This document shows, piece by piece, positions 1 through 20,967 of a DNA stretch of 24,823 nucleotides. Origin of the DNA: a virus. Location: positions 1-24,823 of the IMG/VR virus record IMGVR_UViG_3300005613_000396. One strand, given 5' to 3'. A program made the translations under genes and the position numbers. Below the pieces are notes generated by a model. That model had not been told where the DNA came from, ran no database searches, and saw only the letters and a program-made list of their open reading frames with translations. The stretch's first letter is position 1. Each line of letters opens with the position of its first letter.

Positions 1-1891
<1,891 letters not shown>

Positions 1892-1902
<11 letters not shown>

Positions 1903-4208: not shown

Positions 4209-5384
4209 TTAGAAGTCGCTCACATCCTGAGTCAAACTGACCATTAACAATGCGCCATCAGCAAAGGTCTTAGTACCAACACCGATAATTCCCTTCGGCA
4301 AGTCGGCAAAACCTTTTTCCTTATCAGCAACTTTCAAGTCCATGAATTGCAGAACCATATCAATAGATCCACGAATCATGAAAACTGAATCCAGCTCCTG
4401 ATCGTTCCAACAATCGGTCGTATCTGTTAGATCGTCCGATACAGCAATGTCACCAAAGCCGGCGAGAGTCATCTCGTCATTGGAATCATCATTGGTCGCA
4501 GTAATGCGTCGCTTTCTCCGGATAATGAAGTTGTTCTTGGCACTCATCTGGACATAGTCAGTCCCGGCAGTACCAGAATCGTTAATACAAGCGGTTAATG
4601 CCGCTCTTGTCGTATCAACGTCAGTACCGCAGAGAACTCCAACATATCCTGAAGTTGTGTTATCAAGATCGTCTTGGAATTCAAACGTAACTCCGCCAAT
4701 GGTAACTGTGTCGCCATTGGTTGGTTCGGTTGCTAACTCCAGCGTAGCGCTCCAAGGAAGGTTGTTTGACTGTACAACAGTCCAACCCTGCCAAGGACCA
4801 ACAACTCCGTTTGCCAAAACCGAATCGCCAAGTCTGCTTTCACGGTCGCTCTTTGCTCTTCTTAATCTTGCCACTGTACGAGGGCCTAAAACACAGGCTC
4901 TCATGGCAGTTTCGTAAGGAGCGTCGAACGCACCCAGTTTCCCTTCGGCTTCCTCCAAAATATCAAGGATATTTACGGTGGTAACTTCAACAGGAGAACC
5001 GGAAATGCTGTGTTCAGCATTGGTAATCTCGCTTAAAAACTTCTGCTCAACTCCGTTCATTAACCCTTTACGGATTGATTTCAGGGATTGACCCAAAAGA
5101 TCGTAAGGAGATTGCTTAGACTCGGTAATGTCGATATCCTCTGCGGCGTACTCGAAGGTATCAACCTCCAAAGTTTCCTTAGTAGCAGATTTTTCCTCAA
5201 ACGAAATGTCGCTGTGAGGAGTGTAAGTACCAACCTGAGGATGGGACAAAATCGGTCTGTGGGCTTTGTACCCGGTGTCGCTAATGAGTTCGGAGAGTGA
5301 TTGGTTGGCTAGATATACAGCGGTGTTAGACACATACAGATCAGCCTGCAAATCACCCCAAAACTCTTGTCTCACGTCATCCAT
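4209..5384 (-). CDS. Major capsid protein, HK97-fold (putative)
   Basis: 391 aa, encoded directly after the acidic scaffold-like gene, the usual place for the major head protein. The N-terminal part (VYLANQSLSELISDTGYK, GTYTPHSDISFEEKSATKET) and the helical middle (SPYDLLGQSLKSIRKGLMNG, YETAMRACVLGPRTVARLRR) match the layout of HK97-like capsid proteins: N-arm, E-loop-like strand pair, spine helix and P-domain. Residues about 212-325 (LATEPTNGDTVTIGGVTFEF onward) look like an inserted beta domain of the sort found on capsid surfaces. The C-terminus (KGIIGVGTKTFADGALLMV) returns to the core. Shine-Dalgarno GAGGGGGTGA sits 8 nt before the ATG. The capsid role rests on fold pattern and context, not on a catalytic motif. 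Confidence 0.8.
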   Translation of the reverse strand: MDDVRQEFWGDLQADLYVSNTAVYLANQSLSELISDTGYKAHRPILSHPQVGTYTPHSDISFEEKSATKETLEVDTFEYAAEDIDITESKQSPYDLLGQSLKSIRKGLMNGVEQKFLSEITNAEHSISGSPVEVTTVNILDILEEAEGKLGAFDAPYETAMRACVLGPRTVARLRRAKSDRESRLGDSVLANGVVGPWQGWTVVQSNNLPWSATLELATEPTNGDTVTIGGVTFEFQDDLDNTTSGYVGVLCGTDVDTTRAALTACINDSGTAGTDYVQMSAKNNFIIRRKRRITATNDDSNDEMTLAGFGDIAVSDDLTDTTDCWNDQELDSVFMIRGSIDMVLQFMDLKVADKEKGFADLPKGIIGVGTKTFADGALLMVSLTQDVSDF

Positions 5385-5448: not shown

Positions 5449-6102
5449 TTATTTTTGTGCCTTGTGCTTTGCTCTCGCCTTCTTTGCTTCCTGCCAGGCC
5501 TCAACGCCTTCTTTACTATCAAAGTCAAAATCTTCAGGATTTAAAGGTTTGGCGGGATCATAGCTCGGCGCAACAGAACCCTTCTTAGAACGCCTGGGAG
5601 TCGCTTTTTTAACACGCTCCTCCCGCTCAACTTCCTCTTTCCTAGAAAGGATATAAGGATGTTTCGCTGCCTCCCTTACGGGGATACCTTTCAATTTAGC
5701 AAGATCTTTGACCTCTTCTTTCAGTTCGTCTTTTAAGTCAAGAGATTCAAGCTCTCTTGCTTCAAAACGCTCTGCAAGCTTCTGATCAACTAACTTGTCA
5801 ATATCAGGCTCACCGCCTTCAACGGGTTTTTTACCCTTCCCGGGAGTATCCTCGGGTTCTTCGGAAGTTTGGGCCTTTTCCCTCCAGCTTATCTTTTGCC
5901 TAATAGCTCCGGATAGCTTTTCACGATGGGACCTTTCCCTCTCGACAAGTTTATCAAGAAACTCCTCGTCCATTTCCGGATCGAGCTCAAATTCTTTTGA
6001 AAGAGTTTCTTTCAACTCCTCATCCTTAACTTCCTGTTGTGCCTCTTCTTCAGCTTTCTGCTCCTCGGGAGACACCTCGAGGTTTTTATTTTCTTCGGGC
6101 AT
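5449..6102 (-). CDS. Scaffold-like head assembly protein
   Basis: 217 aa, very rich in Glu, Lys, Asp and Arg and almost free of aromatic residues, predicted to be largely coiled coil (EEQKAEEEAQQEVKDEELK, DLKDELKEEVKDLAKLKG). The C-terminal end is basic (KKARAKHKAQK), as in scaffolds that bind capsid protein through a C-terminal helix-turn-helix. It lies immediately upstream of the capsid gene. Scaffolds guide procapsid assembly and are then expelled. AAAGGAGG precedes the ATG by a few nt. Its roughly 120-nt leader carries a complex inverted-repeat structure (6153-6224). No protease motif is visible, so a fused head protease is unlikely. Confidence 0.75.
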   Translation of the reverse strand: MPEENKNLEVSPEEQKAEEEAQQEVKDEELKETLSKEFELDPEMDEEFLDKLVERERSHREKLSGAIRQKISWREKAQTSEEPEDTPGKGKKPVEGGEPDIDKLVDQKLAERFEARELESLDLKDELKEEVKDLAKLKGIPVREAAKHPYILSRKEEVEREERVKKATPRRSKKGSVAPSYDPAKPLNPEDFDFDSKEGVEAWQEAKKARAKHKAQK

Positions 6103-6152
6103 GGCCCTCCTTTTCTTTCTACCGATGGCTATTTGCCGATCTGGCAGTTAAT

Positions 6153-6236
6153 GTTGGAGAAAAAGGAAAGCGTTGTGTATAACCCTTTTCTCCAACCTTA
6201 ATTGTCAGAGTCTCACAACGCTTTTCTCCCACTATA
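6153..6236 (-). promoter_or_regulatory. Late-type promoter and alternative-hairpin leader (unit 5)
   Basis: The -10 box TATAGT is at 6231-6236, preceded by TTTGTAG. The 5' element AAAGCGTTGTG (6224-6214) can pair perfectly over 11 bp with CACAACGCTTT at 6177-6167. A second pair, GTTGGAGAAAAGG (6196-6184) with CCTTTTTCTCCAAC (6166-6153), is 13 bp with one bulge. The two pairings interleave, with 0-1 nt between the 3' arm of the first and of the second, so they should exclude each other. An RNA switch is possible. The AAGGAGG site of the scaffold gene lies about 40 nt further on. Confidence 0.65.
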
Positions 6237-7839: not shown

Positions 7840-9879
7840 TTAAAGTCCATATTCCATTCTGGCGGCCTTTTGTCTTTGTTTCTTTTGATAAATACTCTTT
7901 TTAAGTCTTGCCTTCTCTTTTGCTGGATCACGCCTCTCAAGAGTGCTCAGGGCGTACCTAGAAGCGTCAAGACAATTATGTACTAAAATCCCGTTAGCAA
8001 AATATTCATGACAGCCGTCAACAGTTAAATCAAAGACTTTCTCTTTCCAACTTCCTTCTACGACGCAGTGCTTTAGCCTTGCAATTTGGATGACAGTATT
8101 TTGATATTCCTGAGTATCTTGTCTTGTATTTTTTTCCACAAACTTCGCAAGTCCTTGTTTTGTACTTCTTGTTCTCCCAAGTCTTTTTTCCATGTTTTTT
8201 ATGCCACTCAATACCTTCTGGTGAACTGTGCCATTTTTTAGCCGCCTCAATTCCTTTCTTATGAAACTCTTCAAACCATTTACGACCTTTTTTCTTAATA
8301 TTTTCTTTGGCATGAAGCGACATGTGAGCATTTTTATCAACCAGCTCGAGATTTTGAATATTATTATTCCAAGGATTGCCATCTTTGTGATGAACATGCT
8401 TGTTTTTAGGAATAGCATCACAAAATTCGCTCCAAACCACTCGATGAAGAAATCTAGTACCCCTGCTAAAATATCTCGCCCCCGGATAAAGATGATATTC
8501 TTTGCCTTTGAATAATTGCACAGGTAAACCCCGTCTCCCGATTGTAATTTTGATATTCGTTTCCATCCTTTTATTGTTTTTATTTTATGATCCGCAGTAC
8601 ATTTAATTATAATTTCTTTAGTATCTAATTGCAACCTGTATTTGTTTACTGGTTTCGTTCCGTTACTCCATCTTTTAACTACTGAATTGTACCCACTACT
8701 TGTCAGAACCAAGTCATCTGGATTAATATCTTTTATTGCCTTAGTCCCACTAGATGTATTGATTAATGTGTCGCCAGTAAAACAATGATTGAAGGCATCC
8801 TCCGGTATGTTGGGCGTAATCGTCTTGCCCAGCCTGTCTGTCGCCCAGGTGTAATTGCGGTACTCTTTTATTAAATTAACACTCCTTTTAGTAACCGAGA
8901 TTGGTATATCCTGAAGAAACTGTATCCCCTGCCTCACCGAGTCCCTGCCTTTTTCCGCCCCCCTAATGTTTACTCCATATCCGTAAATCTCGTCAATGCT
9001 CTTGGGTTCAGCGCTGTCGGCAATCACAAGAGTTTCCGGGTGATTAACAATATCAAGAATGAAATCGGCTATTTTCTTGTTGCTCATCCCCTTCTGATAG
9101 AACTGTTCGTCTAAAACATACCCCCCGTTTAAATAGTAAACATCAACCAGGGCAGAGGGATCTATGGTGTACCCGAAATCCAGCCCCCGGCGCACCAGGC
9201 GTGCCTCGTGAGGTATTTCGTCTATGATCTGCCAACCGCTATAAATCTTTCCTTCAAGCTCTCCAAACTCGCCCCTCCCGTAAACCTTCCAAAAGTTTTT
9301 CCTATCCTTTTTCGACTCAAGGGAGCGGACAATGTTTTCATCAAGCGCCTCATTGTCTTTATAAGTTAAAATGAGATGATCGTAATCATCCCTTTTGGGG
9401 AAAATATCATCGCTTACCCAGAACTCTGTAACCGGGTTGTAGTCTATAAAGACAAACTCGTTGGTTCTAATTTCAAGCTGTTCAAAAGTTTCAAAGGGAA
9501 CATTGTTTGCCTCGTTTATAAACAACCTGTCTCTCCTCGGTCCCCTTACCTTGCCGGGCTGGTCTGCCGAGAAAAACTCAATCTTGCTACCGGTTTCAAA
9601 GGTATAAACATAATCTGTTTTATTCCAACTTTTGGGCTTAAATAAATTGAGACTTCCCATAATTTCAAGAAAGTCTCTTACAGATCCTCTTTTCAAATGC
9701 GGAAAGGTTTCTGAAACAACAGAGGTCAGGGTCGGCTTCTCGTCTCTTTGGGCCAAGTCAATCAGAATAAGTAAAATACTGTAGGTTTTTGAGGCAGAGC
9801 TTCCCCCCTGGACAATACGGAGTCTCTTATCAAGGGCCTTAATCTTTTTTAACCCAGTTGTAATACCGGGACGACTCAT
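7840..9879 (-). CDS. terL: Large terminase subunit with intein
   Basis: 679-aa precursor; splicing gives a 409-aa terminase. This motor ATPase and nuclease packages and cuts phage DNA at the portal. Visible motifs: Walker A GGSSASKT (25-32), Walker B RLFINEA (118-124, catalytic E123), coupling motif FIDYNP (144-149), nuclease Asp residues in LDFGYTIDP (D234) and IADSAEP (D288), and the third nuclease motif NH/CLDASRYAL, split by the intein after His365. The C-extein is 44 residues, starts at Cys636 and ends RMEYGL. The gene overlaps the small terminase gene by 4 nt. The intein runs from Cys366 to Asn635. Within it another gene lies in a different frame (8030-8521), yet the terminase frame has no stop throughout. 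Motif set and order fit Terminase_3-type proteins. Confidence 0.93.
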   Translation of the reverse strand: MSRPGITTGLKKIKALDKRLRIVQGGSSASKTYSILLILIDLAQRDEKPTLTSVVSETFPHLKRGSVRDFLEIMGSLNLFKPKSWNKTDYVYTFETGSKIEFFSADQPGKVRGPRRDRLFINEANNVPFETFEQLEIRTNEFVFIDYNPVTEFWVSDDIFPKRDDYDHLILTYKDNEALDENIVRSLESKKDRKNFWKVYGRGEFGELEGKIYSGWQIIDEIPHEARLVRRGLDFGYTIDPSALVDVYYLNGGYVLDEQFYQKGMSNKKIADFILDIVNHPETLVIADSAEPKSIDEIYGYGVNIRGAEKGRDSVRQGIQFLQDIPISVTKRSVNLIKEYRNYTWATDRLGKTITPNIPEDAFNHCFTGDTLINTSSGTKAIKDINPDDLVLTSSGYNSVVKRWSNGTKPVNKYRLQLDTKEIIIKCTADHKIKTIKGWKRISKLQSGDGVYLCNYSKAKNIIFIRGRDILAGVLDFFIEWFGANFVMLFLKTSMFITKMAILGIIIFKISSWLIKMLTCRFMPKKILRKKVVNGLKSFIRKELRRLKNGTVHQKVLSGIKNMEKRLGRTRSTKQGLAKFVEKNTRQDTQEYQNTVIQIARLKHCVVEGSWKEKVFDLTVDGCHEYFANGILVHNCLDASRYALSTLERRDPAKEKARLKKSIYQKKQRQKAARMEYGL
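7975..8784 (-). other. Intein in terminase (270 aa), with out-of-frame endonuclease
   Basis: It starts at Cys1 (CFTGDTLINT, codon 8784-8782) and ends ...EYFANGILVHN before +1 Cys (codon 7974-7972). Block A, block B (TADH at intein 63-66; GWKRISKLQSGD) and blocks F/G (VFDLTVDGCH, penultimate His, final Asn) are all intact, so splicing should work. It sits in the third nuclease motif, a conserved site where inteins often persist. About 88 residues of N-domain and 35 of C-domain are recognisable. The roughly 150 residues between them match no endonuclease; they are the shifted-frame reading of the HNH gene, with a hydrophobic stretch (FFIEWFGANFVMLFL) and then a Lys/Arg-rich stretch. Confidence 0.88.
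8030..8521 (-). CDS. HNH homing endonuclease nested out of frame in the terL intein
   Basis: About 164 aa, -1 relative to the terminase frame. It has the common phage HNH layout: KGKEYHLYPGARYF, LHRVVWSEFCDAIP, then the HNH core HVHHKDGNPWNNNIQNLEL with a following HMSLHA, then a Lys-rich linker and a CEVCGKKY...YCHPNC zinc motif and a basic tail. It would nick or cut the intein-free terL allele to spread the element. A GTG at 8521 is preferred: it follows the last conserved residue of the intein N-domain, fits where relatives start, and has purine-rich GGGAGACGGGG upstream. The other choice, ATG at 8566, abuts AAAAGG and lies inside conserved intein block B. Its stop lies within VFDLTV of the intein C-domain. 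Fusion by frameshift would need two opposite shifts. Confidence 0.85.
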   Translation of the reverse strand: MQLFKGKEYHLYPGARYFSRGTRFLHRVVWSEFCDAIPKNKHVHHKDGNPWNNNIQNLELVDKNAHMSLHAKENIKKKGRKWFEEFHKKGIEAAKKWHSSPEGIEWHKKHGKKTWENKKYKTRTCEVCGKKYKTRYSGISKYCHPNCKAKALRRRRKLERESL

Positions 9880-10256
9880 TCTTTCTTTTCTTTAGTATAG
9901 TCTAAAAGGGGAATTGGTTCGCCGCCGCTCGTTACGTCCACACTCTGCGACGCTCTGCCTTCTGTCCGGTCGGTTACTTCCTTTAGGTAGGATAAATCTT
10001 CCTTTGCCTCAACAATTGCCTGATAAGCCAGCTCTTGCGCAACGGTTCTTTCTTTTTCGGGGTTATTTTCCAACCAACTCTTAAACTCGTCCGCAGTCAT
10101 TTTGACTAGCTTTTTATACTGAAAGCCAATAGAATCCTCTGCCTTCCAATGACCACCGGATGGGTTTCCTGATTTGCCCTTGGGAAAAGTATATTTATTT
10201 CCCTTAACAAACCTTCCCTTTGAGTCTCTTTGTTTCTTGGGGTCCTCTTTCTTCAT
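9876..10256 (-). CDS. terS: Small terminase subunit (putative)
   Basis: 126 aa from the ATG at 10256. The N-terminus DSKGRFVKGNKYTFPKGKSG and NPSGG is the Lys/Gly-rich DNA-binding style of DUF5681-type proteins linked to terminases. The middle (FKSWLENNPEKERTVAQELA) and AKEDLSYLKEVTDRTEGRA are helical and match the oligomerisation region of small terminases. It overlaps the large terminase by 4 nt (ATGA). A GTG at 10295 in the same frame would add 13 residues but lies inside the 5' hairpin element GCGTTGTG; GAAAGGAAG upstream of the ATG supports the shorter form. It would recognise the packaging site and regulate the ATPase. Confidence 0.75.
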   Translation of the reverse strand: MKKEDPKKQRDSKGRFVKGNKYTFPKGKSGNPSGGHWKAEDSIGFQYKKLVKMTADEFKSWLENNPEKERTVAQELAYQAIVEAKEDLSYLKEVTDRTEGRASQSVDVTSGGEPIPLLDYTKEKKE

Positions 10257-10315
10257 AGCACTATGCTTCCTTTCGGTCTCTCCTCCAGGTTTCACAACGC
10301 TTTGGGTAAATTATA
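10257..10315 (-). promoter_or_regulatory. Late-type promoter with conserved 5' element (unit 4)
   Basis: The -10 TATAAT is at 10315-10310, followed after 9 nt by GCGTTGTG. The arm AGCGTT can pair with AGTGCT just before the ATG at 10256 (6 bp, two wobble pairs), enclosing GGAGGAGAG and GAAAGGAAG, so the Shine-Dalgarno region would sit in a large loop and the start codon right after the stem. It is the weakest hairpin of the five copies. Confidence 0.6.
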
Positions 10316-12909: not shown

Positions 12910-14213
12910 ATTTGCTCCCATCCCGAACTTTTATATTGCCAAATTGTGCCAGTTAATGGATCAACCCATATACTACCAATTCCTCCCGAAGGAGTAAAAC
13001 TTGGCGCTGTAACTGAAGGAGTAGTCTTAGTTGTAGCTGTTACCAATCCTGTTGAAAGATAATTATCGGCAGTACTTTCTGTTCCAGTACCACTCTTAGG
13101 TATCTTGTAATAATGAACTTGCCCTCTTGAATCAGTAAAACTCTTTAACTGACCGGCCGGGACTGTAGAAGGATCAACCACCGCTATCCCGCCCTCGGTT
13201 GTGATCTTGTTGGTTGCTTCTCTTACTTCATTGGCAAACTGGGCCTCAGCCATTTTTGCGTTAATGGTTTCGACATCATCATTTAAGCTAACTCCCGCCT
13301 GCGACATAAGTAAAGCTTTCGCCGGGTCAATCATGAGCTCTTTAATTGTATTTACTGTTTCTTGCGCATTGGAAAGATCAAACTCAAGCAAAGCAGTTTG
13401 TTTTTCGGCAATGTTTCTGCTTTCTTTTGTTAACTCGACAATATCCCTGTTGGCTAAAGAAAGAATAGTATTGTAATAGTTCAGCCTATCTTGTCGGTCT
13501 TGGGTAATGGCGTTGATTGACCTGTCTATCGACTGATAGGCATTGGCCAAGTATGTATTTTGTAAAGCCACCACTGCATTGATAACCCCAGCTCTTGAGG
13601 CTACATCTTCCATTGTCTGTTGTATTCGTGGATTCCGGATCACCGCTAAGCCGGTTACTTCTTTTTGCTGGCGGATAAGCTCGTTACCCTCAGTCAAAAG
13701 CTGATCCAATTCTCCGAGAAGCGCTTTTTGTTCTGCTAAAACTTCTCCCGTTCCGAGCCGCTCCCTTTCGGTCTTTTCTAAATCTTCTCTAAAGGGTTCA
13801 GTTAAGGGTTTCGCTTCTTCTAGTGTTTCCCGTTCTCTTTTCCTTGCCTCCGTTAACCGCTCTTGAGTTTTGGTTTCCCGAGCCGCCAAGTTTTGCTCTA
13901 ATGTTTTTCTGGCAGCTTCAAGCTCTGCTGTTAGGCTGGTCTGGGTTTGAGCGGGCAAAGGAACATTGACCGGAGCCTGTATTTCAGTAGCTTGTACTTT
14001 CTGCGGTTGAAGATAAGAAACATTCTCGGGTGCAGTTTGAGCAATCACTTCACTAGATACCGCTTGACCGGCACCCTGCTGATTAGAAGAAGGGTGAATA
14101 ACGCCGGGATCGGATAAGGTGCCTCCCCAATACTGGCGTCCACTGTACCAACCTCCTTGTTGGAAACCACCTGCTGGTGCTGATATTCCTAATTGTTGTG
14201 GCGTTTGTGGCAT
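12906..14213 (-). CDS. Probable internal virion protein, coiled coil, 435 aa
   Basis: It starts at ATG 14213, directly after the promoter hairpin; a TTG at 14231 in the same frame lies inside the hairpin and is rejected. The N-terminal 100 residues are Gln/Pro/Ser/Gly-rich and disordered (PQQLGISAPAGGFQQGGWYS). A long coiled coil follows, about 110-300 (LEAARKTLEQNLAARETKTQ, AITQDRQDRLNYYNTILSLA). The C-terminus has a VHYYKIPKSG element, a Thr/Ser linker and the module PSFTPSGGIGSIWVDPLTG, which recurs at the start of the next protein. Coiled-coil, low-complexity proteins at this place in podophages are usually ejected with the DNA. Partner and fate are inferred. Confidence 0.55.
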   Translation of the reverse strand: MPQTPQQLGISAPAGGFQQGGWYSGRQYWGGTLSDPGVIHPSSNQQGAGQAVSSEVIAQTAPENVSYLQPQKVQATEIQAPVNVPLPAQTQTSLTAELEAARKTLEQNLAARETKTQERLTEARKRERETLEEAKPLTEPFREDLEKTERERLGTGEVLAEQKALLGELDQLLTEGNELIRQQKEVTGLAVIRNPRIQQTMEDVASRAGVINAVVALQNTYLANAYQSIDRSINAITQDRQDRLNYYNTILSLANRDIVELTKESRNIAEKQTALLEFDLSNAQETVNTIKELMIDPAKALLMSQAGVSLNDDVETINAKMAEAQFANEVREATNKITTEGGIAVVDPSTVPAGQLKSFTDSRGQVHYYKIPKSGTGTESTADNYLSTGLVTATTKTTPSVTAPSFTPSGGIGSIWVDPLTGTIWQYKSSGWEQI

Positions 14214-14248
14214 AGTGCTGTCTTTCCACAACGCTTTTGGTTATTATA
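14214..14248 (-). promoter_or_regulatory. Late-type promoter with 5'-terminal hairpin (unit 3)
   Basis: TTGTGTTATAAT with -10 at 14248-14243, then after 8 nt the arm AGCGTTGT, which pairs with ACAGCACT (14221-14214; 8 positions with one G-U and one C-A mismatch). The loop GGAAAG is Shine-Dalgarno-like. ATG follows the stem directly at 14213. Confidence 0.7.
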
Positions 14249-20219: not shown

Positions 20220-20932
20220 AGGCCGTACGCTTTCTGATCCTTACTTTTAATTCTCATCTTAGGTCTTTCGTCCGGGGATCTGAGTTGATAGTGTTCTCTC
20301 ATTGACTGCTTGATCCTCTCTTTTTCTGCACTCAAAGTCTTAATCTTCTCACTCATTCCGTTAGCAATTGCGTACTTCAAGGCTGCGCTTACCGGTAAAA
20401 ACTCATGGAATATCGAAGCAAACCCGGGTTCTGTTGTCGTGTCAGTACTGTCAAAATGATTAGCCCCTCTTTGAAATTCTACCTCAATTCCGCTTGTTGC
20501 CCCGTAGTCTGGAATCGGGACAGGAAAAAAGGCGTTGTCTATTTTATAATATTTTGAGGGAGTACCGGTGTCATCCAACTCACTATCGCTCAACTCTCGC
20601 CTTAATTTCGGAGTTAATGTTTGCCATTCTCCATTCGGATCTTTTACCCGGAAACGGTGAACAACAAGGCTTGCGTCCGGGACAGTAAAGTGGTCTTGGT
20701 TGGCCGTTAGGTCAAGTTTGGCAATGGGGAAGTCGGTGTTGGTAGTGTCGTCCCAAATAAAATTAGGATCGGCTTTAAAAAGCTCGGCAACTGCTTCGTC
20801 CTGGGCCAGATTGATATTGCGGGTCCTATCCTCTAAAGCATAATCGGTGTTGTTGGTTGTGCCATCACCAAAAAGGAGAAAGTCGATATGCTGGATTATT
20901 CCCGTGTAGTCTGTCGTGTCGTTAAACTGCAT
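20216..20932 (-). CDS. Head-tail adaptor-like protein (putative), 238 aa
   Basis: An N-terminal helix with INLAQDEAVAELFKADPNFI, a strand region LDLTANQDHFTVPDASLVVH, RFRVKDPNGEWQTL and IEVEFQRGANHF, and a helical C-terminal part (ALKYAIANGMSEKIKTLSAE) followed by a basic tail ending KAYGL. This matches the look of phage adaptor proteins that form a ring below the portal. It is the first gene of the portal unit and overlaps the portal start by 4 nt. The ATG at 20932 follows a 5' hairpin by 1 nt with no Shine-Dalgarno site. Confidence 0.55.
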   Translation of the reverse strand: MQFNDTTDYTGIIQHIDFLLFGDGTTNNTDYALEDRTRNINLAQDEAVAELFKADPNFIWDDTTNTDFPIAKLDLTANQDHFTVPDASLVVHRFRVKDPNGEWQTLTPKLRRELSDSELDDTGTPSKYYKIDNAFFPVPIPDYGATSGIEVEFQRGANHFDSTDTTTEPGFASIFHEFLPVSAALKYAIANGMSEKIKTLSAEKERIKQSMREHYQLRSPDERPKMRIKSKDQKAYGL

Positions 20933-20967
20933 GGCGTTGTTAGTTCACAACGCTTTTTTGTATTATA
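20933..20967 (-). promoter_or_regulatory. Late-type promoter with 5'-terminal hairpin (unit 2)
   Basis: TTGTGTTATAAT with -10 at 20967-20962, then ACAAAAAA, then the perfect hairpin GCGTTGT-GAACTA-ACAACGC (20953-20934), one C, then ATG at 20932. It is the cleanest of the five copies. There is no -35 box and no Shine-Dalgarno site. Confidence 0.75.

Follow-up and report, generated by a model that had tools for sequence, protein, structure and literature searches.

Can the RNA leader that precedes the scaffold-position and capsid genes of this phage adopt two mutually exclusive folds and, if so, is it likely to act as a switch? The leader lies in a 24.8-kb virus record (24,823 nucleotides, analysed whole and referred to here as the window), nearly all genes of which are on the minus strand. 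The major capsid protein (MCP) gene (4209-5384, minus strand) was recognised by its match to a PHROG major head protein. It is preceded by an open reading frame of 217 amino acids (5449-6102, minus strand) that is labeled "scaffold" by position only: its product matched no family above noise in PHROGs or Pfam.

Four interleaved arms in the leader

Direct reading of the minus strand shows that the leader contains, as an earlier note on this DNA had claimed, four interleaved arms in the order A-B-A'-B'. Arm A (AAAGCGTTGTG, 6224-6214), recognised also by comparison with a family-wide 5' tag, is perfectly complementary over 11 bp to arm A' (CACAACGCTTT, 6177-6167), which was identified by reading and as part of an inverted repeat. 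The 5' strand of arm B (GTTGGAGAAAAGGG, 6196-6183) and its 3' strand, B' (CCTTTTTCTCCAAC, 6166-6153), were identified from the inverted repeat and by folding, and form 14 continuous pairs, one of them G-U. Of the helices as originally described, the perfect 11-bp A thus stands, while the 13-bp B with one bulge gives way to a 14-bp helix with none. All four arms are also marked by covariation (see below). Arm B forms the inner portion of a longer inverted repeat of 27 nt (6209-6183 and 6166-6140, 85% complementary) whose 16-nt loop holds A'; the outer strands of helix B (5' strand 6198-6209, 3' strand 6140-6151, minus strand) were delimited by the inverted repeat and by covariation of the outer pairs.

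Mutually exclusive leader helices – the arrangement looked for in an attenuator, and asserted here by the earlier note – were found: both helices coevolve, and A' and B' are separated by 0 nt. Given this gap, full A and full B helices should be geometrically incompatible in a simple H-type pseudoknot, and a full pseudoknot was ruled out as a candidate. Over a stretch that includes ~16 nt probably upstream of the transcription start, the leader folds better than 200 of 200 dinucleotide shuffles (z -4.07). Around the leader, comparison with Rfam gave nothing up to E 5; elsewhere in the window there were two chance-level matches. Just upstream of arm A, the promoter scan found a -10-like box, TATAGT (6231-6236, minus strand), which together with TAGACA gives 10 of 12 promoter matches; a Shine-Dalgarno-like AGGAGG lies at 6106-6111 (minus strand).

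Distribution of the leader among related phages

Relatives of the MCP (4209-5384) were found in 15 viral contigs, or 52 (the 15 included) with an alignment query, and in two genome contigs that belong to Patescibacteria MAGs, L090 (Candidatus Shapirobacteria) and L091. From the presence of MCP relatives inside these MAGs we infer that the hosts of these phages are probably ultra-small Patescibacteria. The A-B-A'-B' leader is present in the window and in L004-L009, L054, L062, L063, L066-L070 and L090 (n = 16 leaders; that of L054 is identical in L055 and L056), and in all 16 it precedes the scaffold-position gene. L091 has a divergent form with a long insert. More distant relatives (for example L010-L018, L057-L060, L064 and L065) are without A and A' and have other hairpins at this place. 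A search with the leader pattern gave nine matches, eight of them in MCP relatives; the ninth, L102, is without a nearby A arm. The leader begins 7-40 nt past the end of the open frame before it, counted from the stop codon (16/16), so that coupling to translation of that gene, or read-through from upstream, is possible. A -10 box (5/6 or better) is found near A in only 5 of the 16 leaders.

Covariation of helices A and B

The earlier note had named a lack of covariation in relatives as a sign against its proposal. That sign is absent: covariation is present in both helices, which are kept in 15 relatives despite sequence divergence. In an 11-row alignment (11 of the 16 leaders; L005, L007, L008, L063 and L066 excluded), two-sided changes affect 11 of 17 counted pairs of helix B and 3 of 11 pairs of helix A; on account of gaps, the six innermost of the 14 inner B pairs, plus the outermost pair, were excluded. 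Pairing occurs in 92.8% of cells, compared to 34.5-44.4% when partners are slid by 1-3 columns, and in 94.2% of the cells of helix A alone. For four of five covariation measures none of 500 shuffles equalled or exceeded the observed value; the fifth, further pair types, was not raised (355/500 shuffles as high). When B was paired with B' across phages (an energy matrix of all 16 leaders), self-pairing was far stronger than cross-pairing among 11 representatives (mean -27.8 vs -15.9 kcal/mol), with 0 of 20000 permutations giving self-pair energies as low; L005 replaced L004 in this permutation set. L091, because of its long insert, is outside both the alignment and the permutation sets and was read by eye.

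Helix A shows almost no variation, and its covariation support is therefore thinner: compensated pairs come from L067, L068 and L090, while helix A is unchanged or mismatched in the L004 and L006-type rows and mismatched in those of L009 and L070. Overall, the phage's own A is mismatched to A' in L004, L005, L008, L009, L070 and L091. That B is paired in every leader and A is mismatched in several would fit a static helix B, serving RNA stability or the binding of a phage protein (scaffold or capsid, for example), with the A:A' complementarity a by-product of tag sharing. The 94.2% pairing of helix A, with its compensated pairs in L067, L068 and L090, speaks against such a static helix, which would also leave the location of A' in the loop of B unexplained; we consider it rather unlikely.

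Over the stretch read, the leaders of L066 and L067 differ only in the B 5' strand, which is perfectly complementary to B' in L067 and has several mismatches in L066 (-46.2 vs -27.8). Template switching or an assembly effect could be the cause.

Folding of the two states and hairpin T

The earlier note had called for folding energies of each form. In the window these are close together: -45.3 kcal/mol for the A state vs -41.4 kcal/mol with A unpaired. When the window leader is folded as prefixes of increasing length, A:A' is present at 52-68 nt, helix B takes its place at 72-110 nt, and A returns at 122 nt; in the complete A-state fold, part of the Shine-Dalgarno region is paired with the start of B'. 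Across the leaders the A state is favoured in 12 of 16 and the alternative in 4 of 16, in L067 by about 25 kcal/mol (+24.9). The balance of states is thus not conserved. This speaks against fine thermodynamic tuning of a switch; control could instead be kinetic or in trans.

Downstream of B' is a further hairpin, T (CTGCC...GGTAG, 6119-6147, minus strand; from folds and a T scan of the leaders), whose 5' arm is overlapped by the end of the outer 3' strand of B. T is terminator-like (at least four T in the eight bases after the best stem) in 8 of 16 leaders (L009, L062, L063, L066, L067, L069, L070 and L090), and a terminator scan, applied to L062, L066 and L069, recovers it in each; in the window, L004-L008, L054 and L068 the hairpin is without a U-run. 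In L091, which is outside the 16-leader count, ACCGCC-AGATA-GGCGGT precedes a run of eight T, the final base of the stem not included. Since the outward extension of B overlaps a hairpin that is terminator-like in half of the leaders, the layout resembles that of an attenuator, and in those 8 of 16 leaders control may be of transcription rather than translation. In the free fold of L062 the inner part of B and T form together, and B need not, therefore, prevent T.

Of the readings considered for the leader, the best supported is a conserved RNA switch that would act in cis ahead of the scaffold-position and capsid genes, its output, direction and signal being hypothetical; our confidence that it is such a switch is evenly divided. 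Of the two helices built from the four interleaved arms, only one could fully form at a time. As RNA polymerase passes, A:A' would form first and then be displaced by B:B'. In the A state, B' and T would be freed, and termination could follow at T in relatives with a U-run, while in the window the start of B' would pair with the Shine-Dalgarno region. The B state could sequester the 5' arm of T and would leave the ribosome site free. Because A is also the tag of other late mRNAs, whatever recognises the tag could set the switch jointly with the late genes. Such a switch is supported by the self-pairing of B with B', by two-sided changes in both helices, by close energies combined with the A-B-A order of the prefixes, by a terminator-like T that overlaps the outer part of B in 8/16 leaders, and by the same gene position in 16/16. 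It is weakened by the variation in favoured state (12/16 vs 4/16), by own-A mismatches in six phages, by the lack of a U-run after T in 8/16 including the window, by the coexistence of B and T in L062, and by compensated changes in helix A that come from few lineages.

A tag shared with other late mRNAs

Arm A is the tag GCGUUGUG, which stands at the start of other late mRNAs across the phage family. The assertion that arm A recurs at other promoters of the window proved correct: GCGTTGTG is found at four further promoter-like sites on the minus strand (20953, 14234, 10300 and 2290). Tag and stem scans place the corresponding tag leaders (all minus strand) at 20933-20955, with the stem GCGTTGT/ACAACGC 1 nt before the ATG at 20932; at 14214-14236, with an interrupted stem before the ATG at 14213; at 10257-10302, with the stem AGCGTTGTG/CATAGTGCT touching the ATG at 10256, in the position of the terminase small subunit; and at 2270-2292, with the stem AAGCGTTGTG/TACAGCGCTT touching the ATG at 2269.

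Across the family, tag leaders were defined by the tag, a -10 box with at least 5/6 matches and an ATG within reach, a stem not being required; 30 sites were obtained first, and the five with only 4/6 -10 matches were dropped to leave 25. At least six continuous pairs, joining the end of the tag to bases 0-2 nt before the ATG, are present in 15 of the 25 (shuffles: mean 0.78, maximum 5). Because the tag was picked by pattern, part of its conservation follows from the selection itself; neither the stem nor its contact with the ATG was selected for, except at loci found with patterns that demand GC downstream. Stems are interrupted at window 14234, in the terminase leaders of L009 and L054, and in L142; there is no clear stem in L109 (same type of site as L141), L120, L143 or L069:6499 (the L144 site). 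The tag leader at L054:8928 has 11 bp with the right ATG, the 25-leader scan having used another. Natural alleles include GCGUUGUG/CACAACGC in the window and GCAUUGUA/UACAAUGC in L066. A general enrichment of stems at start codons was looked for among 636 starts and rejected, there being no peak 0-2 nt before the ATG; the AUG-touching stem is therefore particular to the GCGUUGUG class. The GCGUUGUGAAA of tag leaders resembles what we take to be a conserved 16S rRNA stretch, GUGUUGUGAAAU.

The tag lies 6-13 nt downstream of the -10 box in the 25 leaders, and from this spacing the transcript is presumed to start at the A just before GCG, which would make the tag the very 5' end. All 25 tag leaders belong to phages that also bear the A-B-A'-B' leader, and the scanned records without that leader have either no tag match or, where the leader rule could be applied, matches that fail it. 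The 15-kb record L006 has the leader and no tag match, so a phage with the leader may be without the tag. Among 34 viral stretches with tag matches, those that pass the hairpin-ATG test and have a -10 box and a long open reading frame are L023 and L024, both in contigs of MCP relatives; by a rough estimate of the size of the collection, the number of matches is near chance. The tag was also considered as a host feature and found unsupported: in the two Patescibacteria MAGs a loose pattern matched twice per MAG, always within the phage contigs. A strict pattern, which would also miss most phage copies, gave none in 379 genomes.

If the tag were a DNA operator, or a signal in the initially transcribed sequence, for a phage transcription factor, A' would be an inverted second site. 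Its constant placement after the -10 box and the tag changes held in common within one phage (L066, L090) would follow. Left unexplained, however, are the compensated changes of B and B' and the G-U-containing arms that touch the AUG, and the A of the scaffold leader is without a good nearby -10 in 11 of 16 cases; we regard this explanation as very improbable.

A further prediction concerns pairing in trans. If A', exposed in the loop of helix B, pairs with the GCGUUGUG tags of other late mRNAs, it would open the AUG-touching tag hairpins or mark them for decay; where a relative has a terminator, the leader would be freed at T as a small RNA, and the leader's own A would be a self-inhibiting strand or a vestige. 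A' is indeed more constant than the own A: L004, L005, L009, L054 and L070 differ in A with A' unchanged, and in L009, L054, L070 and L091, where the own A is weaker, full pairing of A' with the phage's tags is kept for most or all of them. Where the own A has drifted, A' thus often retains its complementarity to other mRNAs, and pairing in trans is a possible, if unlikely, function. In the L066 phage the same two changes (GCAUUGUA) occur in A, in A' and in another promoter tag, and the L090 phage has GCGUUGUA throughout; such shared changes would also fit a protein or other tag-reading factor. On thermodynamic grounds only, A' would gain 4 to 8 kcal/mol by pairing with the four window tags once the cost of opening their hairpins is deducted, and the occurrence of all 25 tag leaders in leader-bearing phages agrees with such pairing. 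Against trans pairing, two of three tags in L069 and one of four in L054 are one base off A', L006 has the leader without a tag match, and the absence of a U-run from T in 8/16 leaves no obvious small-RNA end in those phages. In its fullest form the proposal would make the capsid leader the hub of a phage-wide RNA circuit, in which A' pairs in trans with late-mRNA tags to free or block the start codons that abut the tag hairpins. The capsid operon would be switched by the same tag in cis, and RNA pairing alone would keep capsid and late genes in step. We offer this circuit tentatively and think it doubtful.

A hairpin at the scaffold-position start codon

The start codon of the scaffold-position gene itself lies within a small hairpin, GGGC-CAU-GCCC as written here (6097-6107, minus strand; start-codon hairpin scan). 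Hairpins with the AUG in the triloop occur at register 0 in 39 of 636 open reading frame starts, compared to 3-24 at other registers. The 39 are mostly starts of the scaffold-position gene, and both sides of their stems vary (GTCC/GGAC, ATCC/GGAT, GACC/GGTC, GGGC/GCCC, GCCC/GGGC, TGGC/GCTA). A start codon within a conserved, compensated hairpin, as in a start-codon operator, was therefore found here and also in MW202577.1, a named phage record (L148) whose capsid is 55% identical; the register did not fit in L005 and L008. MW202577.1 has TTCC-UAU-GGAA at the scaffold-position start and a twin, GTCT-UAU-AGAC, upstream, with neither tag leaders nor A'. As it has the start-codon hairpin without tag or A', this hairpin appears to have the wider distribution, and the tag together with the A-B switch would be the joint elaboration of one clade. 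Two observations here favour the static helix B discussed above: the start codon has a conserved hairpin of its own, as would befit a protein operator, and MW202577.1 retains a long hairpin at this place without A or A'.

In the distant relatives L010, L012, L014, L016, L018, L064 and L148 a second small hairpin (GCCC-UAC-GGGC, ACCC-UAC-GGGT, GCCC-UAU-GGGC or GTCT-UAU-AGAC) lies ~10-25 nt before the start-codon hairpin, which it resembles as if the two might be copies of one binding site. In several genes of MW202577.1, and at the window starts 6588 and 7100 (minus strand), only a few bases separate a -10-like box from the ATG, the spacing expected for leaderless mRNAs.

Comparison with known systems and other features of the window

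Some transcription attenuators, for example the Bacillus trp leader with TRAP (PMC3913778), are built of terminator, antiterminator and anti-antiterminator. The phage leader is similar in being promoter-proximal, with competing helices, a terminator-like hairpin in half of the leaders and structural genes after it. It differs in having no known ligand, protein or leader peptide, in that T is without a U-run in the other half, and in that its first arm is common to other phage mRNAs. Trans-acting small RNAs derived from bacterial UTRs exist, and they share with the leader a loop segment complementary to the 5' ends of other mRNAs and sometimes a terminator; here, however, there is a cis complement in the same phage leader, and the leader is known from sequence alone. 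The coat operators of RNA phages are translational operator hairpins that hold a start codon. As with those operators, the start codon before an assembly gene lies in a small conserved hairpin with compensatory changes, but the phage is a tailed dsDNA phage, the hairpin is different and the binding protein is putative. The scaffolding protein of P22 autoregulates; dosage control of a scaffold gene beside a capsid gene would be common to both systems (putatively, in the present case), whereas binding of the scaffold-position protein to its own mRNA would be hypothetical.

To our knowledge, gene control in Patescibacteria phages is poorly understood. Sequence alone here yields a late-gene tag that spans the family, a two-state leader with coevolving helices, and a start-codon hairpin that is conserved. 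If capsid dose is set by the leader, scaffold, capsid and other late proteins would be balanced at the level of RNA; if A' acts in trans, the result would be an unusual RNA-only regulon. The leader looks like an undescribed control element: it is not described in the accessible portions of two papers on Patescibacteria phages (PMC12911398, PMC13059738), a scope outside which most subscription papers fall. A literature search on P22 scaffolding autoregulation gave no relevant paper.

Elsewhere in the window, the large terminase open reading frame (7840-9879, minus strand) contains an intein (Pfam Intein_splicing). An overlapping open reading frame in another frame (8030-8566, minus strand) presumably encodes an HNH endonuclease-like protein, judged by eye from an HHKDGN...N motif. 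Positions 1-1900 (minus strand) belong to an open frame that resembles a tail fibre, contains long collagen-like GDTG repeats and extends past the end of the record.
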